Below, in pieces: positions 19,307 through 34,186 of a stretch of DNA of 64,000 bases (positions are counted from its first letter, which is position 1; every line of letters starts with the position of its first letter). Position numbers and translations under genes: made by a program. The notes under the pieces were generated by a model that was not told the DNA's origin, made no database searches, and saw only the letters and a program-made list of their open reading frames with translations. The stretch comes from Methanococcus voltae (GTDB taxonomy: Archaea; AGJL01; Methanococci; Methanococcales; Methanococcaceae): contig NZ_JANUCR010000001.1 of assembly GCF_024807655.1 (NCBI RefSeq), positions 434,001 through 498,000 on the forward strand. Reading direction: 5' to 3'.

Positions 19307-20983
19307 TTAAACCGGTATTGTAGCATTTAATAAGCTATTTGTAACCATTTCTGTAACTACAGCAACTATTGAAGCTATCCAAACCATTGTACTGAAATGA
19401 AGCAATGAAACTTGATAATGTCCGCCATCCATTAATTTTATTAAATAGGATGAACATAATGAATAGATTATCAAAGTTCCATACATCATATATGAAATAA
19501 ATCCAAAGTCAGATGGTGCTACAACGTGTACCATACTGAGCATTGTGTCAGGTATGTCTAAACTGGAGTATAATCCATTAACCATTGATGCTACACCATA
19601 TGAAGCAAATAAAGTTAAAGCCATACCGCCGGATAAACCATACATAACCCCTGCAAACTGATTAACGTTCTGGTATTTAGAACGTCTTAATTGCAATATT
19701 TTACGGAAGTTTCTACCTATAATATGGGACGCTTGACCAGAATTACCGCCTAAATAGGTACATCGTTCATACATCTCTGAAAAGAGCTGTATCATATAAC
19801 TACAAGTATCATGTCCAAAGTATTTCCAAGATTTTTGACCATCTATCCTAATAGATAGCCTCCTGTGTAATGCAACGAGGTCTTTGGTAAGTGGTCCAAA
19901 ATCATTTGTACACAAATAGCCCAAGGATTCTAAGGTTCCACCACCTTTTGCACTTACTGAATCACCCAATGACCTTAAAAAGTCTGGAAAGTTATTTTCT
20001 TTACGAATAACTAACGATTCCTCACGTTGTGCAATATACCCGCCTATCATTAGTGGAGTCATTGCTATTGAGAATATTATTTCATAAGGTATACTCAATA
20101 ATTGGGGTGCCTCATAGATGTATTTTCCCCAAAACAGTGCAAGTGATAAAACTAAAGTCAAAAACACTGAAATTATAAGCCATTTTTTTAATTTCCTATC
20201 AATTGCAGTTGGTTTTTCACCAGTGTGCCATAATCTATCATATGGCAATTTATTCTTAATACTGTATATTAGAATAACTTCTATTATCATAAATATGAAA
20301 ATTGCAACGGTTACCATCGTTATAAAATCATAAGGCAATAAAAATGGTGCGATAATTGCAAACGTCACAAAGAAAGATACAGAGGTTATTGCACTCACAT
20401 ACATTTCTTTAAAGTTATCTAAGGAATATAAGGCTCTTTCATAGAAACCAGCATATTCTTCCATTACAATATCTTGCTCCCCTGCCAAAAATTCCTTTAA
20501 TTCCTGACCGCTGTCTATAGAATATGCCATTCTATCTAAAAAATCACCAAATTGACTGCTTGGTGTCCTGTTTGCTAAAAATCTACAAGATTCTGCTAAA
20601 GACTGATTCCAACGTTTTACTAAAACATAAATTTTACGTGATTCTTCTGCAAGTTGTCCTAATTCTTCTTTTTCAACAGCCAATAATTCTAAAAGTGCCT
20701 TATTGTCTAAATCAGTGATAGATAATACCCCAAATTTAGTGATATAAACATGTAATCTTTCATTTATTTTCTGTTTTTGGGAATCTAATTCAATATAGGG
20801 ATATCCTAAAGCCCCGCCCAAAAGAAGTAGGGGTAGTGCCAAAACCAAAAGTCTTGTAATTCCATCAAAGTATATGAAGCCCAAAACTACCATAAATAAT
20901 GAAGCAACTACTGCAGGAAGTACAAATTTTAAGAAATAATCTTTTGGTTTTAATCCTACTCTTGGTAGTATATCTAAAATCAT
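19307..20983 (-). CDS. flaJ: Archaellum platform protein FlaJ (ArlJ)
   Basis: A 558-residue polytopic membrane protein of the TadC/GspF-like family that anchors the archaellum motor. Hydrophobic segments near the N-terminus (about 22-60), in the middle (about 200-310) and at the end (about 450-550) flank two cytoplasmic helical domains, which carry the GGTLESLGYLC and GGNSGQASHIIG regions. It is the last gene of the archaellum operon, 9 bp after the flaI stop. ATG follows AAGGTGG. Confidence 0.95.
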   Translation of the reverse strand: MILDILPRVGLKPKDYFLKFVLPAVVASLFMVVLGFIYFDGITRLLVLALPLLLLGGALGYPYIELDSQKQKINERLHVYITKFGVLSITDLDNKALLELLAVEKEELGQLAEESRKIYVLVKRWNQSLAESCRFLANRTPSSQFGDFLDRMAYSIDSGQELKEFLAGEQDIVMEEYAGFYERALYSLDNFKEMYVSAITSVSFFVTFAIIAPFLLPYDFITMVTVAIFIFMIIEVILIYSIKNKLPYDRLWHTGEKPTAIDRKLKKWLIISVFLTLVLSLALFWGKYIYEAPQLLSIPYEIIFSIAMTPLMIGGYIAQREESLVIRKENNFPDFLRSLGDSVSAKGGGTLESLGYLCTNDFGPLTKDLVALHRRLSIRIDGQKSWKYFGHDTCSYMIQLFSEMYERCTYLGGNSGQASHIIGRNFRKILQLRRSKYQNVNQFAGVMYGLSGGMALTLFASYGVASMVNGLYSSLDIPDTMLSMVHVVAPSDFGFISYMMYGTLIIYSLCSSYLIKLMDGGHYQVSLLHFSTMVWIASIVAVVTEMVTNSLLNATIPV

Positions 20984-20992
20984 TTAACCACC

Positions 20993-22651
20993 TTATATTG
21001 GGAAAGGTAATCCCTCCAATCCATTTTCATAAAATTTCCAAATTATATCTAATACATCATGATAATCATAAATTTCTCTTGCAATCATTTCTTCAAGAAT
21101 TCTAACCCTTAAATTTAATTCGTCATAAATTTCTCTTGGGTCTTCATAACCTGCAACAGTCGCAATTTTATCCTCTAAGATATAACTGTTATTTAAACCA
21201 GTGAAGTTATGGATATCTTTTTGAGGGTCCCATTCAAAAACACCCCTTGTAATAACCCCATCAACTTCTTTATAATATCCTTCAATCTCTTCGACAGATA
21301 CTACTCTTCTTAAAAATTTACCCCGAGTATAAACTGCCAACTGGAATAATGCAATATTCAAGTTATCCATAAACGTTTGAGGTATGTTAATTGGGTCACC
21401 AGTAAGCCTTTGAATCATTTTCCTTACGTTTGCTGCGTGGAAAGTAGATAATACAGGGTGTCCTGTTTGCATAGCTTGGAAAGCTACTGCTCCCTCTACC
21501 GACCTGATTTCACCTACGATAATGTAATTAGGTCTGGACCTTAAAGCTGCCCTTAACAAATCAAATAAAGTAACCCTACTCTCTTCAGGCCCTCTTTCTC
21601 TGGTAAGTAATTGCTGCCATACTGGATTAGGTGGCTTAACCTCTGCAGTATCCTCACAAGAAAATACCTTAGATTTAGGCTTTATAAATGGCATTATTGC
21701 ATTTAAAGTAGTAGTTTTACCAGAAGCTGTTTCTCCACATACAAATATGCTCATACCATATTCGAGACATAACCACAAATATGCTGCAATTTCCGGAGAC
21801 ATTGTACCCCAGCTGATAATTTGAGTAATACTTGTAGGTGTGTCGGAAAATTTCCTTATTGTAAATGAAGGACCTTTTAATGAAACATCGTTAGAGTATA
21901 GAATGTTAATCCTTGAACCGTCCGGCATTGAACCATCAACAATTGGGGTAGCATCAGACACCGGTCTACCCATCCTCTCACATAAATTTTTCAAATAACT
22001 GGACATATCCCCGTCATCTTCCCATACGATGTTTGTAGGCAACATATCAAAAGTTTTATGAACAAGTTGGGTATTCTTTGGACCTATAACGTGAATATCT
22101 TCGATTGTAGGGTCTCTTTTAATAGGCTCTAAATTTCCAATTCCTATTAAATCTCTCCTTAAAAGATAAACAAATTTATCCCTTTGAACTTTTGTAATAG
22201 GAATTGCACTTGAATTTGTTAATTTATCAACGAATCCAAATTTAGATTTTTTAGTGGCCTTATTTGCATTTTTATCAACTTTTGTTACAGTATCAAAAAT
22301 GTCAATTAATACTTTTGAAAATTCATCATCACTTTCAGGAATTTCACTATAAGGAGCATATTCTAAAATTTTATCTAAAATTTCAAAATATTTCGCTCTT
22401 TCAGTTGCAGTATCTAATTTAGGCTCTATTGCAATATATCGAGTCCTTTGATTTGCAGAACCGTAAACATGTATGAATAAAGGGTCTCCAATTGGATAAA
22501 TAACATTTGGATATTTTATTCCCTTTATATCACCTAATCCTCCAATATCAGTGATATAATCAGGAACTTTCATATATGTTTTCTTAAATCTTTCAACGTA
22601 TTTCTTTAAATGGGGATTTTTCTTTTGTGCAGTGTTAAAATCATCAGCCAT
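20993..22651 (-). CDS. flaI: Archaellum assembly and rotation ATPase FlaI (ArlI)
   Basis: A 552-residue type II/IV secretion-family ATPase that drives archaellum assembly and rotation. The N-terminal domain (1-200) is followed by the RecA-like core: Walker A GETASGKTTTLNA, Asp box region CEDTAE, Walker B YIIVGEIRSVE and His box TGHPVLSTFHAANV. The length is normal. It lies between flaH and flaJ, with a GGTGATATA ribosome site. Confidence 0.97.
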   Translation of the reverse strand: MADDFNTAQKKNPHLKKYVERFKKTYMKVPDYITDIGGLGDIKGIKYPNVIYPIGDPLFIHVYGSANQRTRYIAIEPKLDTATERAKYFEILDKILEYAPYSEIPESDDEFSKVLIDIFDTVTKVDKNANKATKKSKFGFVDKLTNSSAIPITKVQRDKFVYLLRRDLIGIGNLEPIKRDPTIEDIHVIGPKNTQLVHKTFDMLPTNIVWEDDGDMSSYLKNLCERMGRPVSDATPIVDGSMPDGSRINILYSNDVSLKGPSFTIRKFSDTPTSITQIISWGTMSPEIAAYLWLCLEYGMSIFVCGETASGKTTTLNAIMPFIKPKSKVFSCEDTAEVKPPNPVWQQLLTRERGPEESRVTLFDLLRAALRSRPNYIIVGEIRSVEGAVAFQAMQTGHPVLSTFHAANVRKMIQRLTGDPINIPQTFMDNLNIALFQLAVYTRGKFLRRVVSVEEIEGYYKEVDGVITRGVFEWDPQKDIHNFTGLNNSYILEDKIATVAGYEDPREIYDELNLRVRILEEMIAREIYDYHDVLDIIWKFYENGLEGLPFPI

Positions 22652-22666
22652 TATATCACCTACTCA

Positions 22667-23359
22667 TTATGCCACTGAGGATATCTCTACTGCAATTCCA
22701 AGTCCTGGGTCAACTCTAAATACCATTACCTTTTGGAATGGTCCTGCAGCCATATTATATTTCACTATTTTGGCAGAATTTTTAAGATTGCCACCAAAAG
22801 CGTATGTTTCGGTCTTTATAACCATTGTAGCAGCGGTTCTTAACATTGTTACTACTTGATCGGAAAGTTCTTTGGGATTTATTGTATATATTATAATTTT
22901 ATTCATTGATGCAATTCTCTTCAAAAATGACATTAAATCGCCCACCTGAACCTCACTTGCATCATTAGATATTAAGGTAGATAGGGAATCAAAAATAATA
23001 ATATCTTTTTCATAAAAAGCTCTTGTAGTCATTGACTTCTTAATAAAATCATCTTTCTGAGTATTATCTGAAATCAACGGATAAACAGGAATATATAACA
23101 AATTACCATTTAGTAATCTCTTATTTATCATATATTTTAAAGAAGTCATTTGTTTAACAAACTCTGTGGTGGTCGATTGTGTGGAAATGTATGATAATGA
23201 ATATGAATTTTGTAAAAAGCCATAGCTAAGCCTTTGTGAAAGTATTGACTTACCAGAAGATTCTTCACCTTCTATATGTATAATACTTCCGTATGGGATT
23301 CCTCCCCCAAAACGCTTATGGACATCGTCTCTTTCAAGCTCTATTTTAGCATATTTCAT
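22667..23359 (-). CDS. flaH: Archaellum motor regulatory ATPase FlaH (ArlH)
   Basis: 230 residues, RecA/KaiC-like fold. Walker A EGEESSGKSILSQRL (about residue 27) and Walker B DIIIFDSLSTLIS are visible. FlaH binds ATP and forms a ring with FlaI at the motor base. ATG 23359 follows CGGTGGTCCTA; the frame reaches 23368 without a ribosome site. A 226-bp gap containing a perfect hairpin separates it from flaG. Confidence 0.95.
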   Translation of the reverse strand: MKYAKIELERDDVHKRFGGGIPYGSIIHIEGEESSGKSILSQRLSYGFLQNSYSLSYISTQSTTTEFVKQMTSLKYMINKRLLNGNLLYIPVYPLISDNTQKDDFIKKSMTTRAFYEKDIIIFDSLSTLISNDASEVQVGDLMSFLKRIASMNKIIIYTINPKELSDQVVTMLRTAATMVIKTETYAFGGNLKNSAKIVKYNMAAGPFQKVMVFRVDPGLGIAVEISSVA

Positions 23360-23525
23360 TAGGACCACCGATATGTGTAAATTTTAATAAAAACTAAATT
23401 CTATAAATTATTTTAATAAATATAAACAATTTGACAATATTTATTTTTTAAACCGAATAATTAATAATTAATAATTATAAAATTATACTACTAAAAATTG
23501 ATTACCCGAATAGAATTAAAATGAA

Positions 23526-23559
23526 TATTATTTAATCAGTTACCTATGATTAAATAATA
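23526..23559 (-). promoter_or_regulatory. Intra-operon hairpin between flaG and flaH
   Basis: A perfect 13-bp stem (23526-23538 / 23547-23559) with an 8-nt loop, 27 bp downstream of the flaG stop on the minus strand and about 165 bp before the flaH start. No strong T tract follows, so transcript processing or stabilisation, or partial termination, are all possible. Confidence 0.5.
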
Positions 23560-23585
23560 AATCTATTGTAATCTTTTAAATTTAA

Positions 23586-24038
23586 TTAAACTATTTCTCC
23601 AGTGAAAGTTCTTGCAATACCATCACTAATTACAACCTTAAACCTGTGGTATCCACTGGTATTATAGGTAATATGTAATTTTCCAACTTTGGAGCTACCC
23701 AATACTTTAACAGAGCTGTCGCCTTCAACATATGTGTTAGATATTTCTACAGGATTTCCATCAACTAACACGCTTATAACTTCTTTATCAAAAGTTATAG
23801 GAGATTTACCCGTATTTTTTAGATATATCATTGTAGTATCTGTTGTATTCTTGAGAACATATCCAGGATCGTTTATTATTTCAAAATCCTTAGTAAGTTG
23901 AGACGAAAGAGAATCACCTCTTTGTTCTAACCCCAATGAAATTTTATGAGTGCTCGTTGCAAGAATTCCAGATACTGCTGCTGTGATTATCAAAACACTA
24001 ACAAATAAAATGATTTCTGAAAATACATTCGAAGCCAT
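23586..24038 (-). CDS. flaG: Archaellum stator-type protein FlaG (ArlG)
   Basis: 150 residues. An N-terminal hydrophobic helix (about 8-30, IILFVSVLIITAAVSGILA) is followed by an archaellin-like beta-sandwich domain (FEIINDPGYVLKN through the end), matching FlaG, which with FlaF links the motor to the S-layer. The start is ATG 24038 after AAAGGTGATTAT; the frame extends upstream to 24062 without support. Confidence 0.9.
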   Translation of the reverse strand: MASNVFSEIILFVSVLIITAAVSGILATSTHKISLGLEQRGDSLSSQLTKDFEIINDPGYVLKNTTDTTMIYLKNTGKSPITFDKEVISVLVDGNPVEISNTYVEGDSSVKVLGSSKVGKLHITYNTSGYHRFKVVISDGIARTFTGEIV

Positions 24039-24214
24039 ATAATCACCTTTGACAGCAGTCAAATAAAATAATTATTTTTATTTTTATTAGCCTAAATAGT
24101 GTAAATAATTATAAATTTTTATAATATTTTTAATTTTTACGCATATACAAATCTATTAATTTAATATATAATTGTTTGTATGACAACAATCTAACTATAT
24201 TATATCTTTGTATA

Positions 24215-24613
24215 TTACAATTTATAATAATATTTATTACCATATTCCGAAATTAAGGAAATTCTACAAGGTGTCGATCCATTGATTGTTATTTCAACCT
24301 TATTTAGTGGCGTTATATAACTTTGATTTGCAATATAGACTTTAGGCGTCCCATTGTACATAACAGTCCAATGTTCAGAATTTAATGTTTCTGTACCGTT
24401 GTTGGACAGTTTCAAAACTATATCATCACCTAATTTGGTTATATTAATCAATTCTAAATTTTCATTCATCTTACTCTGCAAATTTTCAGTATGATCAGAA
24501 TAAGCATTTGTAAATTTAGAAGATACAACATCTACTGAACTGTAAAGATAAACAGAACAAATCAGTAGTGTTGTTAGTATCAAAACCGATCCTACAGTAG
24601 AACTAAATCCCAT
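24215..24613 (-). CDS. flaF: Archaellum stator-type protein FlaF (ArlF)
   Basis: 132 residues with an N-terminal membrane helix (VGSVLILTTLLICSVYLYSS, about 7-26) and a beta-rich extracytoplasmic domain. FlaF binds the S-layer and partners with FlaG. The start overlaps the flaE stop by 11 bp, indicating translational coupling. A 176-bp gap to flaG contains a small inverted repeat (ATTGTT ... AACAAT). Confidence 0.9.
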   Translation of the reverse strand: MGFSSTVGSVLILTTLLICSVYLYSSVDVVSSKFTNAYSDHTENLQSKMNENLELINITKLGDDIVLKLSNNGTETLNSEHWTVMYNGTPKVYIANQSYITPLNKVEITINGSTPCRISLISEYGNKYYYKL

Positions 24614-25010
24614 AGTATTGCTCTGCTCCTTTCTTGATTCTTCTAATTTCCCACTCTAATTTGTCTAAAGCTTCAGAAGATACTTTTTTACCATTTAATC
24701 TTTCGATAAATAATAAAGATACCAAGTGGTCAGCAATGGTCAATTTTCCTACTGATGTTTCAATGTCGTCGTCATCTAATCCAATTCCTTTTGAGAATTT
24801 TAATAATTTAGCGATAGCTTTATCTGAAACCCATCCTAAATTATAGTAGAATTCTAAAACATCTGGAACGTTTGAATGACCTACTCTTTCACATAAGTAT
24901 TCTAACCATTTGAATACGAAGATTGATGAATATGAATCTTCAGGGATTGTTTCTAATTTTGCAGGTTTGTGGCTTTCAAGCAAGATTGACGATAATGTAG
25001 CAGTGTTCAT
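24603..25010 (-). CDS. flaE: Archaellum cytoplasmic ring/switch protein FlaE (ArlE)
   Basis: 135 residues, homologous to the C-terminal domain of FlaD: both contain FKWLEYL/FKWLEFL, a VLDYYY/VLEFYY stretch, and end with an EIRRIKKGA or EITRIKKWA helix. FlaC, D and E form the cytoplasmic complex that receives chemotaxis input. ATG 25010 follows GGAGTGAATTAT; the frame extends upstream to 25049 but lacks a ribosome site. Confidence 0.92.
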   Translation of the reverse strand: MNTATLSSILLESHKPAKLETIPEDSYSSIFVFKWLEYLCERVGHSNVPDVLEFYYNLGWVSDKAIAKLLKFSKGIGLDDDDIETSVGKLTIADHLVSLLFIERLNGKKVSSEALDKLEWEIRRIKKGAEQYYGI

Positions 25011-25068
25011 ATAATTCACTCCATTAATCCTATTATTGTTAATAATCATTTTTGGATATTTTTAATAA

Positions 25069-26148
25069 TTATAATGTTTGTAATTCAGTTGCCCATTTTT
25101 TAATTCTTGTAATTTCTCTTTCCATTTCTTCAAGTTCATCTACTGAAATTGGTCTTCCAGCTAACTTTTCAATGTATAATAATGAAACCACGTGATCCTC
25201 AGGGGTCATTGATTTACTTGCTTTCCACTCCATATCTTCGTGGAAATATTTCATATTTTTGGATATTTTTAATAATTTATTCACTGATTTACCAGAAATC
25301 CATTTTAACGAATAATAGTAGTCTAAAACGTCTACTAAATTGTTAGTACCAACTCTACTAATTAAAAATTCTAACCATTTAAATATAAGCATTGTTGATA
25401 AGGTATCTTCTGGCAATTCTTGAAGTCTGGTATTTTCACTAATGTTGGCAATTTCTGACTCCATATTTCTTACCTCCACATAATCCATAGGAATTTTAAC
25501 TTCATTTTCAAGACCGGCAGATTTATTTAACTCTTTTTTATCTTCTGGTAAGGATTCGACTTTTGCTGAATTATCAATTACTACATCATTATTGTATTCT
25601 TTTGAATCGATTTCTTGAATTTTAGGATTTTCAATCAATTCAATTTCAGGAATTAATTCTTCTTCAGTAATTGGAATACTATCATCAGTGTCAATTTCAG
25701 AAAGTTCTATTTCATCGATTTCTTCAATTTTCTGAATCTCTTCTAAAGATTTTGGGCTTTCTAAGATTTCAGGAGATTCATTAGTTAAATCCAATTCATC
25801 CAAATTATCAATTTCTTTTTTAATATCATCCGAAACCTTTGTTGCAGATGAAACTGTAGCTACTTTCATCAATGCGTCTAATTTATGACTTAAATCATTG
25901 ATTTTATTAGTTAATTCGGCAGCTTTTTTATCTTCTGGTCTCTTACCAAAATAAAGGTCTGAAACTCTATTTACTATTTTGTTTAACTGATTTCGGGTCA
26001 GATTTCTATTTTTTAAATTATTTTTCAATAATTCTACAATAAATGATGGAATCTTATGTCTTAATTCATCGAGATAGTCTTCCATCTCACTTTCTGTCAT
26101 GTACTCTTCTTCAAGAGAAGCGTAATCCATATCTACTTTACCAATCAT
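25069..26148 (-). CDS. flaD: Archaellum cytoplasmic ring/switch protein FlaD (ArlD)
   Basis: 359 residues. An acidic N-terminal helical region (1-110), a low-complexity Glu/Ile/Asp-rich linker (about 115-215) and a C-terminal FlaE-like domain (about 230-359). The start overlaps the flaC stop by 11 bp. In M. voltae FlaD is also reported as a shorter internal product; that cannot be judged from this sequence. Confidence 0.93.
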   Translation of the reverse strand: MIGKVDMDYASLEEEYMTESEMEDYLDELRHKIPSFIVELLKNNLKNRNLTRNQLNKIVNRVSDLYFGKRPEDKKAAELTNKINDLSHKLDALMKVATVSSATKVSDDIKKEIDNLDELDLTNESPEILESPKSLEEIQKIEEIDEIELSEIDTDDSIPITEEELIPEIELIENPKIQEIDSKEYNNDVVIDNSAKVESLPEDKKELNKSAGLENEVKIPMDYVEVRNMESEIANISENTRLQELPEDTLSTMLIFKWLEFLISRVGTNNLVDVLDYYYSLKWISGKSVNKLLKISKNMKYFHEDMEWKASKSMTPEDHVVSLLYIEKLAGRPISVDELEEMEREITRIKKWATELQTL

Positions 26149-26704
26149 CGGAATCCTCTCCTAATATCGCTTTGGAGAATTCTTCTTCTGCGAGTATTTC
26201 ATTAATTACTCCATCTAAGTCAATATCATGTTGTTGTAAGTATACATTTGCAAGAATTACTACATCATTTTGTAACTCTTCAACTCTTTTCTTAAGATTC
26301 GTAGATTCATGTTCAATTTTTTCCACTTTTTCCATACTAGTTGCAGTAACTTTGGAAATTCCAATAAATGGATTTATTTGATTTGAAACCACTTCATAGA
26401 GAGCCATCATGTCTTGAAAATTCTCGTTTATGTTATGAATGTCACTTCTAAGATTTTCATTTTCTTTTCTTAGATTAGTAACCATCATTTCAATCTTCGG
26501 AAACTTGGATTCAAGTTCACCCATTTTGGCAAGAAGTTCTTCATTTGCAGCTACTAAATCATTATTTGATTCGGCTGTGGTTTCCTCATCTAGTACGAAG
26601 CTGAATTCGTCTTCAGAATCATCTTCAAGAGGTGTAGTATCATTCTTCTTGCCCAATTTGATCTTCTGTTTTATATCATCGATTATTTCAGAGATATTGG
26701 GCAT
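26138..26704 (-). CDS. flaC: Archaellum cytoplasmic ring/switch protein FlaC (ArlC)
   Basis: 188 residues, acidic, largely helical with coiled-coil character (LLAKMGELESKFPKIEMMVTNL and MEKVEKIEHESTNLKKRVEEL). It lies directly after the last archaellin gene (10-bp gap) and overlaps flaD. ATG follows CGGTGATAGT. Confidence 0.93.
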   Translation of the reverse strand: MPNISEIIDDIKQKIKLGKKNDTTPLEDDSEDEFSFVLDEETTAESNNDLVAANEELLAKMGELESKFPKIEMMVTNLRKENENLRSDIHNINENFQDMMALYEVVSNQINPFIGISKVTATSMEKVEKIEHESTNLKKRVEELQNDVVILANVYLQQHDIDLDGVINEILAEEEFSKAILGEDSDDW

Positions 26705-26714
26705 ACTATCACCG

Positions 26715-27410
26715 TTATTGGAGCGCTATAACGTTATTGTTGTATACAGGCGGTGTTGTAAAGTCTATTATACCAGAAGCACCAAATTCAGGAATTACTT
26801 CCCCTTGGATTCTTATTCTGTTACCAATATCGTCCCCAACAATTTCACCAATGTTGATAGCCAATAACACTTTGTCTCCATAATTAACTGTTGGATGGTC
26901 TCCAGAAACTGATTTATCCATATCTTGGAGTACAATGATACCAAATTTCTTTTCACCATTACCACTACCATATGCATCGTCAAATGGCCATGCACCTTCG
27001 TCGTAATTACCATTTTTTTCAAAGATATTATTTGTACCAGTTGCATTTTCCAATCTTGCATTAGAACTATCATTTTCATACAATAATGAGATTTTATTTT
27101 CTTTTGTAGAGAATGTAACAACAGTAGTTGATAAATCGATTTCATCTCCAATATTTGGAGAAACCATTATGGCTATTTTATCCATATTATATTTGTCAAC
27201 GGCATGACCGGAAACTTTCATTACCTGTAAGCCACTTGCAACTTGTTGTGTACTTTCCTGACCAACTACTGCAGCTTTATGTTGTAATTTACCTGCTGTA
27301 TTTATAATAACCGAAGCAGCTACGGCAGCTACTAAAACGAGTGCGATAAAAATTATCAAAGTACCAATACCCACCGCACCTTTTTTATTATTCATAAAAC
27401 TTTTTAACAT
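26715..27410 (-). CDS. flaB3: Archaellin FlaB3 (probable hook-proximal type)
   Basis: 231 residues. Leader [11 protein letters not shown] is cut before [18 protein letters not shown]. Unlike the other archaellins its N-terminal helix continues [26 protein letters not shown], the variant found in FlaB3, which in M. voltae and M. maripaludis forms the cell-proximal, hook-like segment. It is the longest archaellin here, in keeping with the M. voltae FlaB3. It follows a stem-loop and a T tract (27430-27459). ATG follows GAGGTGG. Confidence 0.92.
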
Positions 27411-27429
27411 GTGCCATCCACCTCAATAT

Positions 27430-27459
27430 AAAAAATAAATTAAGATATACTTAATTTAT
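27430..27459 (-). terminator. Intercistronic stem-loop with T tract before flaB3
   Basis: A perfect 10-bp stem (27435-27444 / 27450-27459), 5-nt loop, followed on the minus strand by a short T run, starting at the base after the upstream archaellin stop. It matches in type and position the stem-loop described between flaB2 and flaB3 of M. voltae, which protects upstream archaellin mRNA and reduces read-through. Confidence 0.8.
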
Positions 27460-28110
27460 CTATTGTAATTGAACTACTTTGGCATCATCTAAGTAAGTAG
27501 CAGGTGTTGTGAATGATATAACTCCTGGTGCACCGAATTCTGGTTGTACAGTTCCTGAGATTGCAGTTCTTGCAGTTGCTGTGAATGATGTTGTGTTAAC
27601 TGTGATAGCTACAATGTCACCTTTGTTGATAACTGGGGTAGCAGCAGCACATGAACCATCAGCATCTTGAATAACTGCAACACCGAATTTTGTTGCAGAT
27701 AATGTTTTCCAACCTACTGTAGCATCGGCAAACATATCTCCACCATCTGTTAAGTCTTTGTGGAATGTTGAATCGTATTTGTAAACTCTTTTATTTGCAC
27801 CATCTGAAAGCATTACTACAGCTTGACTTAAATCAATTGCTGAGCTTCCTGCGTTAGGTGATATGTAAATTGCTGTTTTGTTTATATTAGCACCATTGTG
27901 CATTCCCATAACTTGTGCAATTTGTAAACCGCTTGCAACTTGTTCAGTACTTTCTTTTCCTGTTGTTGAAGCTTTTTGTTGTAAAAAGCCACTTGTGTTA
28001 ATTAAAACACTTGCAGCTACTGCTGCAACTAATACCATTGCTATGAATACGATTAAGGTACCTATACCTGAAGCACCTTTTTTGTTATTCATAAATTCTG
28101 TTATTTTCAT
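27460..28110 (-). CDS. flaB: Archaellin FlaB (copy directly before flaB3; FlaB2 position)
   Basis: 216 residues. Leader [12 protein letters not shown], mature start [19 protein letters not shown]. The first 64 residues are identical to those of the next upstream archaellin, and the last part ([22 protein letters not shown]) is also shared; only the surface-exposed middle differs (HNGANINKTAIYISP ... GGDMFADATVGWK). It has sequons for N-glycosylation (NKT, NTT). It occupies the position of flaB2 in M. voltae. ATG follows GAGAGGTTATATTT. Confidence 0.9.
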   Translation of the reverse strand: MKITEFMNNKKGASGIGTLIVFIAMVLVAAVAASVLINTSGFLQQKASTTGKESTEQVASGLQIAQVMGMHNGANINKTAIYISPNAGSSAIDLSQAVVMLSDGANKRVYKYDSTFHKDLTDGGDMFADATVGWKTLSATKFGVAVIQDADGSCAAATPVINKGDIVAITVNTTSFTATARTAISGTVQPEFGAPGVISFTTPATYLDDAKVVQLQ

Positions 28111-28200
28111 AAATATAACCTCTCAAATTTTTTAAAATGAGGTAAATTTTGATAATCCTAATATTAGTAATTAAATATTAAAATACACAATTTAATTTAA

Positions 28201-28869
28201 TTATTGTAATTGTACAATTTTTGAACCAGTTAAGTATGTAGCAGGTGTTGTGAATGAGATAACTCCTGGTGCACCGAATTCTGGTTGTACAGTTCCTGAG
28301 ATTGCAGTTCTTGGTGTTGTAGCAAATGTAGTCGTATTAATTGCAATAGCTACAATGTCACCTTTGTTGATAACTGGGGTAGCAGCAGCTACTGAATCAT
28401 CAGCATCTTGAATTACAATTAAACCAACGGTAGTACCGTTTAATTTTGACCAGTCTGCTATTGAACTAAATGCATCAGCTACACCAGCTGAAGCATCCAC
28501 AAATCTTCCATTTGCAGCTGCTCCTGTAGCATTATATTTGTAAACAACTTTTTTATCGCCATTTGCAAGCATTACCACCATTTGACTTAAGTCAATTGCT
28601 GAGCTTCCTGCGTTAGGTGATATATAGATTAAAGTTTGGTTAATATTTGCAGTATTATGTTTACCAAGTATTTGGGTAATTTGTAAACCGCTTGCAACTT
28701 GTTCAGTACTTTCTTTTCCTGTTGTTGAAGCTTTTTGTTGTAAAAAGCCACTTGTGTTAATTAAAACACTTGCAGCTACTGCTGCAACTAATACCATTGC
28801 TATGAATACTATCAAGGTACCTATACCTGAAGCACCTTTTTTGTTATTCATAAATTCTGTTATTTTCAT
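28201..28869 (-). CDS. flaB: Archaellin FlaB (additional tandem copy)
   Basis: 222 residues with the same leader and the same first 64 residues as its downstream neighbour, differing in the exposed middle ([20 protein letters not shown]). Three flaB genes are described in M. voltae; with this one there are four in tandem, so this or the adjacent copy is a recent duplication. A 203-bp block over its 5' end differs from that of the neighbour at only two positions that I can find. Sequons NIT-type and NTT are present. ATG follows GAGAGGTTATATTT. Confidence 0.9.
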
Positions 28870-28978
28870 AAATATAACCTCTCGGTTTTTTTTGAGGTTG
28901 TTACTTATTAATTATTTAAATATTTCAAAAAATTCGATAATAAAAATTAATATCGATAATTTAGCATTTTATACTAAA

Positions 28979-29635
28979 TTATTGTAATTCTACAACTTTT
29001 GTTGTGAATGTAGCAGGTGTTGTGAATTCTAAGATACCTGGTGCACCGAATTCTGGTTGTAATTTACCTGAAACTGATGCTCTATTAGGGATACCTGTTG
29101 TTGTTGAGAATATTGCACCTGTGTTGATTGCGATAGCTACTAAATCACCTTTGTTGATAACCTGGTTTTTAGCTACTGAGCCATCGAAGTCTTGTAATGA
29201 TACAACTTGGAATTTTGTTGCTGTTGTATTTGTTAATAATGTAGCGCTTAATACGTCAGGTGTTCCTGATGTACCATCGATTGCACTTGTATTTGCTTTT
29301 AATACAGCACTTACGCCGTTGTATGTAATGAATAATTTAGCTTGGCTTAAATCAATTGCTGAGCTTCCTGCGTTAGGGGTGATGTATGCTACTAAGTGAG
29401 TAATGTTTTCACTTGTTGTGCTGTTAACACCGGTTACGCCGGTTACTTGTAAACCGCTTGCAACTTGTTCAGTACTTTCTTTTCCTGTTGTTGAAGCTTT
29501 TTGTTGTAAAAATCCACTTGTGTTAATTAAAACACTTGCAGCTACTGCTGCAACTAATACCATTGCTATGAATACTATCAAGGTACCTATACCTGAAGCA
29601 CCTTTTTTATTAGTTAAAAAGTCTTTTATGTTCAT
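28979..29635 (-). CDS. flaB1: Major archaellin FlaB1
   Basis: 218 residues; first gene of the archaellum operon. Leader MNIKDFLTNKKG and mature [19 protein letters not shown], then a Thr/Ser/Asn-rich exposed domain with several sequons (NST, NIT, NTS, NTT) and a conserved end [19 protein letters not shown]. The start is ATG 29635, directly after GGAGGTATAGT. The frame is open up to 29866, but that extension is the regulatory repeat array and leader, not protein: its apparent 4-residue periodicity is the 12-bp repeat read as codons. Confidence 0.95.
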   Translation of the reverse strand: MNIKDFLTNKKGASGIGTLIVFIAMVLVAAVAASVLINTSGFLQQKASTTGKESTEQVASGLQVTGVTGVNSTTSENITHLVAYITPNAGSSAIDLSQAKLFITYNGVSAVLKANTSAIDGTSGTPDVLSATLLTNTTATKFQVVSLQDFDGSVAKNQVINKGDLVAIAINTGAIFSTTTGIPNRASVSGKLQPEFGAPGILEFTTPATFTTKVVELQ

Positions 29636-29729: not shown

Positions 29730-29746
29730 ATTATATACTTTTTTTG
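29730..29746 (-). promoter_or_regulatory. Core promoter (BRE + TATA) of the flaB1 operon
   Basis: On the minus strand CAAAAAAAG (29746-29738) is followed by TATATAAT (29737-29730). A start site about 25 bp downstream would fall near 29708, giving a leader of about 70 nt. The same A-rich BRE + TATA pattern occurs at flaA. Confidence 0.8.
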
Positions 29747-29844
29747 CACTTCTTTAAGCATATGGTTTTGTATATGGCTATGTATATGATATTGTAGATA
29801 CTTATGTAGTTTTTTATGTAGCCATTTATGTAGGTAAACTTGTA
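29737..29844 (-). promoter_or_regulatory. Array of 12-bp repeats (EarA-type sites) upstream of flaB1
   Basis: Read on the minus strand from 29844, the sequence divides without slippage into nine 12-bp units beginning TACAAG, TACATA, TACATA, TACATA, TACAAT, TACATA, TACAAA, TGCTTA and TGCAAA; the last unit is the BRE itself. TACATA is the element I recall for the Methanococcus archaellum activator EarA. The helical-turn-scale spacing suggests cooperative binding along the DNA. Confidence 0.8.
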
Positions 29845-30279: not shown

Positions 30280-30936
30280 TTAGTGTAGTATTATCACATC
30301 TTCTGTTTTACCATAAGCATTTGGCAATATATATGTAAATTGTGTTTTAAATCCTACTTCAGATTGTAAATAACCATTTAATCTTGTTTTAGGAGCTAAA
30401 GTTAAACTTGTGCAATTTACAGTTAGGACTGCCATATCACCTTTTCCAAGAACTGGTGAATTAGCAGTACATGAACCATCGTCATCTTGAACATTAATAA
30501 TTCCAAAGTTATAATTTGGTAATGTTGTTGAGTTATACCAAGCTTTAGAACCTGTTGCATCAAATATTTGTGCATTTGTAGCTTCAAAGTATTCTACATT
30601 ATAAGAAACTATTGATGTAGCATGTCCATCAGACAATAATATTTTGGTATTCCTTAAATCTACTGGTTTACTACCTGCAGATGGGGTAATATATATAGCA
30701 AGCTTATCAATTTTGTTTCCATTTAGCTTACCACATGTTTGAATAATCTTTAGACCAGTTGAAACTTGTTCAGTACTTTCTTTTCCTGTTGTTGAAGCTT
30801 TTTGTTGTAAAAATCCGCTTGTGTTAATTAAAACACTTGCAGCTACTGCTGCAACTAATACCATTGCTATGAATATTATCAAAGTGCCTACACCAGTCGC
30901 ACCTTTTTTGTTTTTCATGAATTGATTTAATTTCAT
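30280..30936 (-). CDS. flaA: Archaellin FlaA (minor archaellin)
   Basis: 218 residues. Leader MKLNQFMKNKKG, mature [19 protein letters not shown], and the shared [19 protein letters not shown], then a divergent middle and an unusual end (YLQSEVGFKTQFTYILPNAYGKTEDVIILH) lacking the QPEFGAPG segment of the FlaB proteins. It is separate from and 644 bp upstream of flaB1, as in M. voltae, where flaA is a low-level separate transcript. ATG follows GGCGGAGGG. Confidence 0.94.
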   Translation of the reverse strand: MKLNQFMKNKKGATGVGTLIIFIAMVLVAAVAASVLINTSGFLQQKASTTGKESTEQVSTGLKIIQTCGKLNGNKIDKLAIYITPSAGSKPVDLRNTKILLSDGHATSIVSYNVEYFEATNAQIFDATGSKAWYNSTTLPNYNFGIINVQDDDGSCTANSPVLGKGDMAVLTVNCTSLTLAPKTRLNGYLQSEVGFKTQFTYILPNAYGKTEDVIILH

Positions 30937-31198
30937 GATTTCCCTCCGCCAAACTAATACTATAATTAATACATTTTATAGCATTATTAATCGTAAATAT
31001 CGTGATTATTAGAGTATATAAGGGACAGTATGAACTATAATATGTAAATTAACAATAAAATATGAAATATACAAAGGTAAACACTTTTAGCAGCCATAAA
31101 TGACCAACAAAAAGGTAATTCTATTAAATGTACCAAGTGTTAATTACTAAAAATATTAACAAGTACAAATCTGAATATTATAGAATAGCTTTTTTTTA

Positions 31199-31215
31199 AT
31201 AATATACTTTTTTTG
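31199..31215 (-). promoter_or_regulatory. Distal core promoter (BRE + TATA) of flaA
   Basis: Minus-strand CAAAAAAAG (31215-31207) then TATATTAT (31206-31199), nearly identical to the flaB1 core. The start site would be near 31175, giving an approximately 240-nt leader. A second TATA-like element (CCCTTATATACTC, 31013-31025) lies closer to flaA and could give a leader of about 60 nt. Confidence 0.65.
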
Positions 31216-31277
31216 TAGTTTATTAAGCACTTGATTAAGTATTTAATTAAGTACTTAAATAAGCAGGTAATTATGTA
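31206..31277 (-). promoter_or_regulatory. Array of 12-bp repeats (EarA-type, degenerate) upstream of flaA
   Basis: From 31277 on the minus strand, six 12-bp units begin TACATA, TGCTTA, TACTTA, TACTTA, TGCTTA and TACAAA, the last being the BRE. Only one unit is an exact TACATA, against four at flaB1, consistent with the weak flaA expression known in M. voltae. Confidence 0.75.
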
Positions 31278-31297
31278 GGTAATCTATAAAAATAACC

Positions 31298-31333
31298 TAC
31301 ATAAGCATATGCAAAAAAACTATATTATATAAG
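31298..31333 (+). promoter_or_regulatory. Divergent EarA-type promoter facing the HEAT-repeat gene
   Basis: On the plus strand a TACATAAGCATA unit (31298-31309) is followed in the same 12-bp phase by TGCAAAAAAACT (BRE, 31310-31321) and ATATTATATAAG (TATA, 31322-31333). This copies the architecture at flaB1 and flaA but points to the gene at 31365. A 10-bp perfect inverted repeat (31271-31280 / 31295-31304) presents TACATA to both directions. Confidence 0.75.
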
Positions 31334-31364: not shown

Positions 31365-33155
31365 ATGATGAATGGATATAAAAATGATGATAAGTATTTT
31401 GATATGAAAGTTAACTTAAATCTGAATAATATTGAAGAATTCAAAAATTTCAGAGAGATATTATTTTCAGGAAAATTCTGTATCGAAAATCCGAAAATAA
31501 TTAACAAAGTATTGCCAGAATACAAAAAATCATTGCAAAAAGATTTCAAATTTAAATGGGCCACATTAAAAGCTATGTCTATAATAGTTACTGCATACCC
31601 CGAACATTTGAAGACGTTAATGCCCATAACAGTTGAAATGTTAAAGGATTCTGATTGGAGAACTCGTAAAAATTCTCTGGAATTCTTGGGTGATGCAGGA
31701 TTAGTATGTTATGAGCTTGTTAATGAGTACATGGACCATATAATAGCAATGTTAGATGATGAAAACCCTAATGTTGTATGTTCGTCAGCTTACACAATTT
31801 CAAAAATATCATTGAACCCAAAATGTAATAATACGAAAAAACTTATAAACTTACTAAATACTAAAATAAAATCTAAATTATTGTTGATTGAAATATTAAA
31901 AAATATGAGTAATATAAATCCCGAAATACTCAAAGATAGTTCAAATAATCTTTTTGGATATTTGGACGATGAAAATCCCGAAATAGTAATAAAAACCCTT
32001 GAAATAATACATAATATTAAACCCGAAAATATTTCATATGATAATGCCGAAAAAATAATTTCAAAAACAGATTCAAAAAATAAGGATATTAAAACTTCTG
32101 CCTTAAACGCATTAGTTGAAATATCTAAAGTAGAATCTGAAAAATTTCGGAATATAATGCCCAAAATTATCGAATTTGTAAAATATGAAGAAAGGGATAT
32201 AAAAATCCCATCAATATATATATTAAATAACTTATGTCATCTAAACCCGAGTATAGTAAACGAATTAGATTTAAACTATTACATAATTACAGAAGATTAC
32301 GACTTAAAATACTCTGTAATGAATTTATTACAAACATTGTCTAACTTAGAGTCAAAAACAGCTCAAAAATACAAAAAAATTATCGAAAAGACCGTTGAAG
32401 ACGATAATAGTTCTATAATTACGAAATCGATTGCCATTATGGGAAATTTCGGAAAATTCGATAAATATTGTAAAGATAAATATATTCCAATATTAAAGTC
32501 TAAATTTTTAGATTTAAAATATAGGAAAGAATCTACATTATCGTTAATTAAATTAGGTTATGTAGATAATAAAATCGTAGAATTAATATTTAATTGTATT
32601 AAAAATATTAATTTAGAAATAAAATTCTTAAAGTGTGTATTTGAACAATATCCTTATGAATTATTGGATGATTTGAAGAAACATACTATTAAAATAAAAG
32701 ATAGTTTACACTTAAAATTAAAAAATACAAAAAATAAATTAATTAACTCTACTGAATATAATGAGAAAATTATTACAGCCCAAAATATTCAGAATTCTGA
32801 AATTGAAACATTGAACAATTTTGAAGAATTGATATCAATAGCAGATTACAGAATAAATGAATATCAGAATACGAATACAAATAATACAAATGTAAAACTT
32901 GGTCAGAGTCTGAAAATTCCTGACGACGAATGTGTTGTGCTCGCACTTAAATCTGAATGTATGGAAGTTGAGCTTGAAGATGGTAAGCAGGTTTATATTG
33001 TCCCAAAAGATAAATCAATGCATACAATATTATCTAATGAATTATTGGAATTTGTTGACAATAATCAAGATAATGAATTTGATTTATACAAAATATCTCA
33101 TGAAATAATGATACAATCATTAATTGAGACTGCTTTAAAAGATAAAAATATATAA
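31365..33155 (+). CDS. HEAT-repeat protein divergent from flaA
   Basis: A 596-residue soluble protein built of helical HEAT-like repeats from about residue 60 to 460 (examples: WRTRKNSLEFLGDAGLV, NPNVVCSSAYTISKISL, NPEIVIKTLEIIHNI, NKDIKTSALNALVEIS). The last 130 residues contain a different domain with VVLALKSECMEVELEDGKQVYIVP. There are no membrane or catalytic motifs, so a scaffold or interaction role is likely. It shares the flaA intergenic region and has an archaellum-type promoter. ATG follows GCGTGATAGT. Confidence 0.8.
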   Translation: MMNGYKNDDKYFDMKVNLNLNNIEEFKNFREILFSGKFCIENPKIINKVLPEYKKSLQKDFKFKWATLKAMSIIVTAYPEHLKTLMPITVEMLKDSDWRTRKNSLEFLGDAGLVCYELVNEYMDHIIAMLDDENPNVVCSSAYTISKISLNPKCNNTKKLINLLNTKIKSKLLLIEILKNMSNINPEILKDSSNNLFGYLDDENPEIVIKTLEIIHNIKPENISYDNAEKIISKTDSKNKDIKTSALNALVEISKVESEKFRNIMPKIIEFVKYEERDIKIPSIYILNNLCHLNPSIVNELDLNYYIITEDYDLKYSVMNLLQTLSNLESKTAQKYKKIIEKTVEDDNSSIITKSIAIMGNFGKFDKYCKDKYIPILKSKFLDLKYRKESTLSLIKLGYVDNKIVELIFNCIKNINLEIKFLKCVFEQYPYELLDDLKKHTIKIKDSLHLKLKNTKNKLINSTEYNEKIITAQNIQNSEIETLNNFEELISIADYRINEYQNTNTNNTNVKLGQSLKIPDDECVVLALKSECMEVELEDGKQVYIVPKDKSMHTILSNELLEFVDNNQDNEFDLYKISHEIMIQSLIETALKDKNI

Positions 33156-33259: not shown

Positions 33260-34186
33260 TTAACCTTCTATTTTAACAATAACTACAGGACTATGCTCCA
33301 TATCGCTTAAAACTTTCTCAGTAATCGTATAGGTATTATATTTTTTCATTAAATCGTGTATCGATTTTGTATAGGGTACCTGCGAAGTGTCTGCAAGATT
33401 TGCAATATATAATAATAATTCCATTGAGTATTTTTTATAAACGTTATTTCCGGTTATGGCTAAAGGCGTAGCTCCATATAATCCACCCATATTTAACAGA
33501 TTTCCTATTTTACCTAATATATAACCAAAAACTCCTATTTTAGCGATTATACCATCTATCGCATAAGGTAAAGCCGTAATATACCACTTATAAAACTTAT
33601 AGGTTGCATCAGTGTCAATTAACATAACAGTTAAATCCACGTCGAACTCTTTTTTTATTGCGTTATATAACTTATCCATAGTTTCTTTTGGCTTTGAAGG
33701 CAATAATGACGCATAAGTTCCAGGTACATTTGTTAAATCGATTCCACCTTCAGAAGCAGGTTTTAAAGCATATATAAAACCCACATTATCGATTACCACT
33801 TGTTTATGTTTCAAAGTCTCTGGTTTTGGCATTTTTCTAAGATTTAATACCCTATCACTTCTTGTTTTTAACAAAGGTCCTAATATATAGCCCCAAATAT
33901 ATTTACTCCAATAATAACAAAAATAAGCACTCAATTTTGGTTTAGACTTATTTTCATCTACAAAATTACCCTGACTTGTAGAAACAAACTTTTCACTAAC
34001 AACTAAAATATCTCCGTCATTTAATGAAATAGTACCTGCATTTAATTCCCTTCTTAACGAATGCAATGTTTCAAATATGAAATCATCACCACTGTATAAA
34101 TAATTAGTTTTAATGGGTTTAGCGGTTATTTTATTTTTTAATTCATCAGAAATTTCATAATTAATTTTATAATTTACTTTTGCCAT
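33260..34186 (-). CDS. CofE-family (F420 gamma-glutamyl ligase domain) protein
   Basis: 308 residues. The N-terminal segment NDGDILVVSEKFVSTSQGNFVD and the later TNVPGTYASLLP, VMLIDTDATYKFY and GATPLAITG match the F420-0:gamma-glutamyl ligase (CofE) fold. It is longer than true CofE (about 250) and the segment around AYFCYYWSKYIWGYILGPLLKTRSDRV is distinctive, so this is the paralogous family and not certainly the F420 enzyme. ATG follows GATGAGATT. Confidence 0.72.
   Translation of the reverse strand: MAKVNYKINYEISDELKNKITAKPIKTNYLYSGDDFIFETLHSLRRELNAGTISLNDGDILVVSEKFVSTSQGNFVDENKSKPKLSAYFCYYWSKYIWGYILGPLLKTRSDRVLNLRKMPKPETLKHKQVVIDNVGFIYALKPASEGGIDLTNVPGTYASLLPSKPKETMDKLYNAIKKEFDVDLTVMLIDTDATYKFYKWYITALPYAIDGIIAKIGVFGYILGKIGNLLNMGGLYGATPLAITGNNVYKKYSMELLLYIANLADTSQVPYTKSIHDLMKKYNTYTITEKVLSDMEHSPVVIVKIEG

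Follow-up and report, generated by a model that had tools for sequence, protein, structure and literature searches.

The segment at 31271-31333 of this Methanococcus voltae DNA is, as read from its sequence, a bidirectional EarA-type control region in which two opposed ACCTACAYA sites would serve two divergent promoters, one facing the archaellin gene flaA and the other a gene for a HEAT-repeat protein. On balance, this region and its HEAT product are probably part of the chemotactic control of the archaellum in Methanococcaceae, the protein serving as a cytoplasmic solenoid adaptor. Understanding of how bacterial-type chemotaxis output reaches the unrelated archaellum motor is still partial; outside the haloarchaea, CheF is the only described adaptor found in the literature searched. 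The HEAT protein offers a candidate that is conserved, apparently co-regulated and found in a genus that is genetically tractable, which allows a direct test. Within the window, i.e. the whole 64-kb stretch of DNA that was analysed, the relevant features are:

19307-29635, minus strand: fla operon, flaB1 to flaJ (open reading frames and translations; flaB1 by Pfam)
29734-29835, minus strand: flaB1 promoter, a 12-bp TACATA array leading to TGCAAAAAAAGTATA; the reference layout for the HEAT promoter
30280-30936, minus strand: flaA-type archaellin gene, the first archaellin facing HEAT (Pfam Arch_flagellin, E=7.9e-43)
31203-31217, minus strand: flaA-side putative weak BRE and TATA, TACAAAAAAAGTATA (sequence)
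31218-31270, minus strand: degenerate 12-bp array TGCTTATTTAAG TACTTAATTAAA TACTTAATCAAG TGCTTAATAAAC, in register from the minus-strand site to the flaA-side BRE
31271-31304, no strand assigned: back-to-back element TTATGTAGGT-N14-ACCTACATAA, a perfect 10-bp inverted repeat
31272-31280, minus strand: EarA-type site ACCTACATA pointing toward flaA (conservation, motif scan)
31295-31303, plus strand: EarA-type site ACCTACATA of the HEAT promoter (ACCTACAYA in 12/12 orthologous regions)
31310-31321, plus strand: putative weak BRE TGCAAAAAAACT of the HEAT promoter, with seven adenines, matching the published hallmark of EarA-dependent fla promoters (PMC5512572)
31322-31333, plus strand: putative TATA element ATATTATATAAG of the HEAT promoter (sequence, register)
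31365-33155, plus strand: gene for the HEAT-repeat protein, 596 aa (open reading frame; Pfam HEAT PF02985, E=2.3e-10)

The strings on which the first-pass annotation had built its proposal are exact in sequence and position, namely TACATAAGCATA (31298-31309, plus strand), TGCAAAAAAACT, ATATTATATAAG and the inverted repeat with arms TTATGTAGGT (31271-31280) and ACCTACATAA (31295-31304), which matches at 92% when extended to 13 nt. Its description of plus-strand elements in 12-bp phase holds for the register leading to the HEAT gene but not for a repeated array, the plus strand having a single EarA-type site followed by BRE and TATA. Tandem arrays of sites are found in the flaB1 promoter, where a clear 12-bp array of the same elements terminates in TGCAAAAAAAGTATATA, and in degenerate form at flaA. 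Both divergent promoters carry a poly-A BRE and a TATA box of the kind found in EarA-dependent fla promoters, and ACCTACACA is the plus-strand candidate EarA site in the HEAT-fla intergenic DNA. Judging from the position of the TATA element, HEAT transcription would start at ~31354. The flaA-side promoter (31203-31280, minus strand) lies ~270 bp 5' of the start codon of flaA, which would give the transcript a leader of ~240 nt if no closer promoter (TATA near 31015) serves.

The HEAT gene is present in 12 of the 22 Methanococcaceae genomes covered by the family search, and its synteny with fla loci, which the first-pass annotation had proposed to examine, proved invariant, with HEAT placed head-to-head with the first archaellin gene in all 12. 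The orthologues are 33-36% identical to the window copy, except for two close relatives at 84%. All 12 orthologous intergenic regions contain the back-to-back arrangement TRTGTAGGT...ACCTACAYA, which none of 36,000 dinucleotide shuffles of them reproduces. Across the 36 genomes of the order scan, the pattern TGTAGGT-N8..38-ACCTACAYA picks out this junction alone, in 11 genomes; in the twelfth HEAT genome, G004, 69 bp separates the two sites. On the HEAT side, the register of TACAYA-N6, TGCAAAAAA... and ATAT is maintained in genera g1 and g3, and a plus-strand poly-A BRE is found in 8 of the 12 regions; three genomes of genus g2 (G007, G013 and G014) and G009 keep the plus-strand site and have the poly-A BRE replaced by other sequence. 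We regard the conservation of the back-to-back element as the decisive evidence that the predicted control element is real. A scan of genome contigs gave a single relative, in a Methanothermococcus okinawensis MAG, and the wider 'phylum' search covered the 36 genomes of the order search again, to which its absences apply. The gene downstream of HEAT (33260-34186, minus strand), a neighbour kept across the genus, encodes an F420_ligase domain (PF01996) scoring far under the CofE equivalog cut-off.

Motif counts were compared with chance expectation. For bare TACATA, the AT-rich window shows no enrichment (86 occurrences vs 81.5 expected), and the loose pattern TACAYA-A6-TATA is not in excess in the whole genome (6 matches vs 5 for the reversed control); such counts and loose patterns, not significant against controls, were rejected as evidence by themselves. 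The longer ACCTACAYA occurs four times in the window against 0.95 expected, a number reached in one of 100 shuffles, and three of the four occurrences are the control sites of flaB1, flaA and HEAT. Of the weak-BRE/TATA string TGCAAAAAAANTATA, the window contains just two perfect copies, one at flaB1 and one at HEAT; the flaA side has a copy with one mismatch. A looser CCTACAYA...TATA scan of nine genomes returned mostly noise, except for the promoters of HEAT, the che locus and a chemoreceptor (MCP) gene; matches at PEP-synthase-like and AMP-binding-enzyme-like genes (identities as read from the sequences) were put down to chance because they do not recur across genomes.

The EarA site in Methanococcus is TACATA, and the motif enriched in Thermococcales is A(C/G)(C/G)TACA(T/C) (PMC5512572, PMC10665913). 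EarA is needed because the fla promoter has a weak BRE of seven adenines, and EarA homologues have been reported in several Methanococcales (PMC5512572). The HEAT promoter, in which a TACATA/ACCTACAYA site precedes a weak poly-A BRE and a TATA, has the sequence expected of the EarA regulon. It shares ACCTACAYA/TACATA site(s) 5' of a poly-adenine BRE and TATA with the EarA-dependent fla (arl) promoter of M. maripaludis and Pyrococcus furiosus, but differs in driving a non-archaellum gene, in the opposite direction to the archaellin and from a single plus-strand site. The placement of the HEAT gene in the archaellum regulon, already made in the first-pass annotation, is borne out at the sequence level by the fixed synteny, the conserved bidirectional promoter and the absence of the gene from 11 genomes in which ArlG was not detected. 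Co-regulation of HEAT with the archaellins is thus strongly supported by comparative data, and we infer that EarA acts at the HEAT promoter. No EarA targets outside the fla operon were found in the literature searched, and HEAT is probably a new target of this kind.

Sites of the same type lie in front of other genes. A genome-wide search with the promoter pattern led to a gene for a 201-aa predicted coiled-coil protein outside the window, near the che cluster (G000:C1:85071-85676; L061:1072-1677) and upstream of a dapB-like gene and cheW-cheB-cheA. This protein is undescribed; the family has homologues of it in 14 genomes, i.e. the 12 with HEAT together with G012 and G015, and 12 of the 14 genes are preceded by (C)CTACACA and then a TATA-like element. 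The sequence ACCTACATAAAA is found between cheF and cheY, upstream of the latter, in 7/7 genomes of the same genus, and in two genomes CCTACAYA and AAAAACAATATAT form a putative promoter in front of an MCP gene:

L047:2911; L048-L050, L052, L054 and L058: ACCTACATAAAA upstream of cheY
L086:2742-2773, minus strand; L087:757-788, plus strand: putative MCP-gene promoter

With ACCTACAYA-type sites before cheY, the MCP gene and the coiled-coil gene, the inferred regulon takes in chemotaxis, which suggests that EarA-type control extends to chemotaxis genes including cheY. The promoter evidence thus predicts EarA control of chemotaxis genes besides the fla operon. For M. maripaludis, an earA deletion strain exists, and published RNA-seq data cover cells depleted of aCPSF1, in which earA and fla are raised (PMC7515710).

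The distribution of HEAT was compared with that of ArlG, marking archaellated genomes, CheA (PF02895) and CheF (PF04283). All 12 HEAT-bearing Methanococcaceae genomes have ArlG, CheA and CheF, and Fisher p values for co-occurrence with HEAT in the family, with kinship ignored, are 7e-4 for ArlG, 1.4e-4 for CheA and 2e-5 for CheF. Homologues in genomes lacking archaella, which the first-pass annotation had named as counter-evidence to its own proposal, were not encountered as orthologues in any of the order's 11 genomes in which no ArlG was detected; the one exception is a stretch of ~57 residues in G021, which is without archaellum genes. There, a 57-residue open frame (L107:1742-1912) resembles the HEAT C-terminus (E=1.8e-4) and is probably the remnant of a lost HEAT gene in decay. 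The archaellum occurs without Che in one genome, G008, which has archaellum genes and is without CheA, CheF, HEAT and the 201-aa protein. Upstream of fla in G008 (L029/L096) there is no EarA-type array or poly-A BRE, the space being taken by a tRNA and other non-orthologous sequence; control of its archaellum may be different or the locus rearranged, and in the latter case the loss of HEAT could be a by-product of the rearrangement. In G012 and G015, archaellum genes and CheA are present and no HEAT match was found, an uninformative absence because the fla contigs stop at the archaellins, beside the expected position of HEAT. No HEAT orthologue occurs in six Methanocaldococcaceae genomes that carry ArlG, CheA and CheF, nor was a candidate replacement identified. 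HEAT would therefore be an accessory rather than a universal part, and switching does not as a rule need it. In several Methanocaldococcaceae, a conserved protein is encoded directly 5' of the archaellins in the same orientation:

L063:3786-5195, minus strand; L066:3594-5003; L068:3620-5038, minus strand; L070:3035-4486: conserved ~470-aa protein

The HEAT protein is soluble, with no transmembrane segment in its 596 residues. A Pfam scan returned HEAT (PF02985, above cut-off), HEAT_EZ and HEAT_2, and AlphaFold2 with 12 sequences (mean pLDDT 81.9) predicts a solenoid at ~29-460, with pLDDT mostly >85, followed by a long helix (466-503) and, at ~520-596, a C-terminal region of small size. Tandem bihelical repeats forming a solenoid, seen by Pfam, in the predicted structure and by Foldseek, place the protein in the HEAT superfamily, and its structure (Foldseek) and profile matches are generic HEAT/ARM solenoids. 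By structure and by profile, the protein is best matched by eukaryotic scaffolds such as beta-catenin, karyopherin-beta and adaptins, a result that any right-handed helical solenoid would give, but with TM-scores of <=0.50 among the matches listed and 9-15% identity they share the generic repeat fold only. Conservation among the 12 orthologues peaks in the C-terminal region (16 residues invariant within 521-560), for which neither Pfam nor NCBIfam gives a match; predicted alone, this region has a low-confidence fold (mean pLDDT 60.5). The protein represents a new family in a system of known kind.

No papers connecting the HEAT gene with archaella were found in the literature searched. In the reading that we favour, HEAT is specific to the lineage and serves as an adaptor, or a tuner, placed between the chemotaxis output (CheY-P/CheF) and the switch of the archaellum. 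EarA bound to the plus-strand site would bring TFB to the weak BRE, and the HEAT gene would thereby be expressed when archaella are made. The cytoplasmic adaptor would most likely contact CheF, CheY-P, CheC/CheD or the ArlCDE switch ring, and these contacts, made via the solenoid and the C-terminal region, would couple or tune rotational switching in Methanococcaceae. HEAT folds are generic binders, and the fold indicates no particular partner. The first-pass annotation had suggested either a structural scaffold or a chemotaxis-interface component; the latter fits better, as a plausible predicted role, because HEAT tracks both the archaellum and CheA/CheF in the family and because ACCTACAYA promoters occur at chemotaxis genes. 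CheF and CheY-P of M. maripaludis bind directly in vitro (PMC9126983), and a HEAT adaptor is thus unneeded for that step and would act beside CheF rather than replace it. A broader version, of which we are slightly less than half persuaded, holds that HEAT, with its family-less conserved C-terminus, is an undescribed switch or adaptor component from an EarA regulon reaching cheY, MCP, the coiled-coil protein and HEAT, which would make EarA a motility-and-taxis master regulator rather than an activator of the archaellum operon.

HEAT could instead be a cytoplasmic accessory of archaellum assembly or of the switch ring, working with ArlC/D/E/H and supplied in step with motor building. Its promoter is physically joined to that of the first archaellin and not to the che cluster, and the family is tied to the presence of the archaellum, both in favour of such an accessory; however, the archaellum gene sets of Methanocaldococcaceae and G008 do without HEAT, and within Methanococcaceae the protein follows CheA/CheF at least as closely, and we consider this reading unlikely, although it deserves some weight. 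Many regulators sit divergent from their target, and HEAT-type solenoids are general protein-binding scaffolds. The divergent placement, the common control region and the solenoid would all suit a protein that locally regulates archaellum gene expression or the level of assembly, for instance by binding EarA or a kinase/phosphatase. Such a regulator is improbable, given that domain searches and the predicted structure revealed no DNA-binding domain, that the tie to CheA/CheF is not predicted by it, and that published work accounts for fla activation by EarA alone (PMC5512572).

That HEAT is a mere neighbour, with no motility role and a promoter likeness stemming from duplication or AT-rich DNA, would agree with the unenriched bare TACATA and with loose patterns that equal their controls. 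Site, spacing and synteny are conserved though the proteins are only ~35% identical, the element is unique genome-wide and no intact HEAT copy occurs in genomes without archaella, all of which makes a neighbour of this kind very improbable.

The adaptor role that we favour has its nearest functional precedent in H. salinarum, where the HEAT_PBS protein OE2401F interacts with CheD and with OE2402F, a DUF439 (CheF) protein, and where switching is abolished without it (PMC2666748). OE2401F and the window protein are both HEAT-repeat proteins encoded beside archaellin genes in clades with CheF and archaella, and both are proposed to link Che and the archaellum; the authors of the OE2401F study did not decide whether other archaea use similar proteins from genes at other loci (PMC2666748). 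OE2401F has HEAT_PBS repeats only, and its gene, between the che region and the flagellins, adjoins one of the cheF family (DUF439) (PMC2666748), whereas the HEAT protein has Pfam HEAT repeats and an extra conserved C-terminal region, and its gene lies ~370 kb from the che cluster (cheF at C1:96066, HEAT at C1:465365). The Pfam scan detected no HEAT_PBS (PF03130) repeats in it. With both these repeats and cheF adjacency missing, assignment to the OE2401F type was rejected, and orthology of the two proteins appears unsupported. CheF (DUF439) resembles the HEAT protein in being archaea-specific, in its place at the Che-archaellum interface and in co-occurring with HEAT in the family. However, PH-like and CheY-binding domains are found in CheF, which occurs throughout archaea (PMC9126983), while the HEAT protein is a predicted solenoid confined, as far as searched, to one family.
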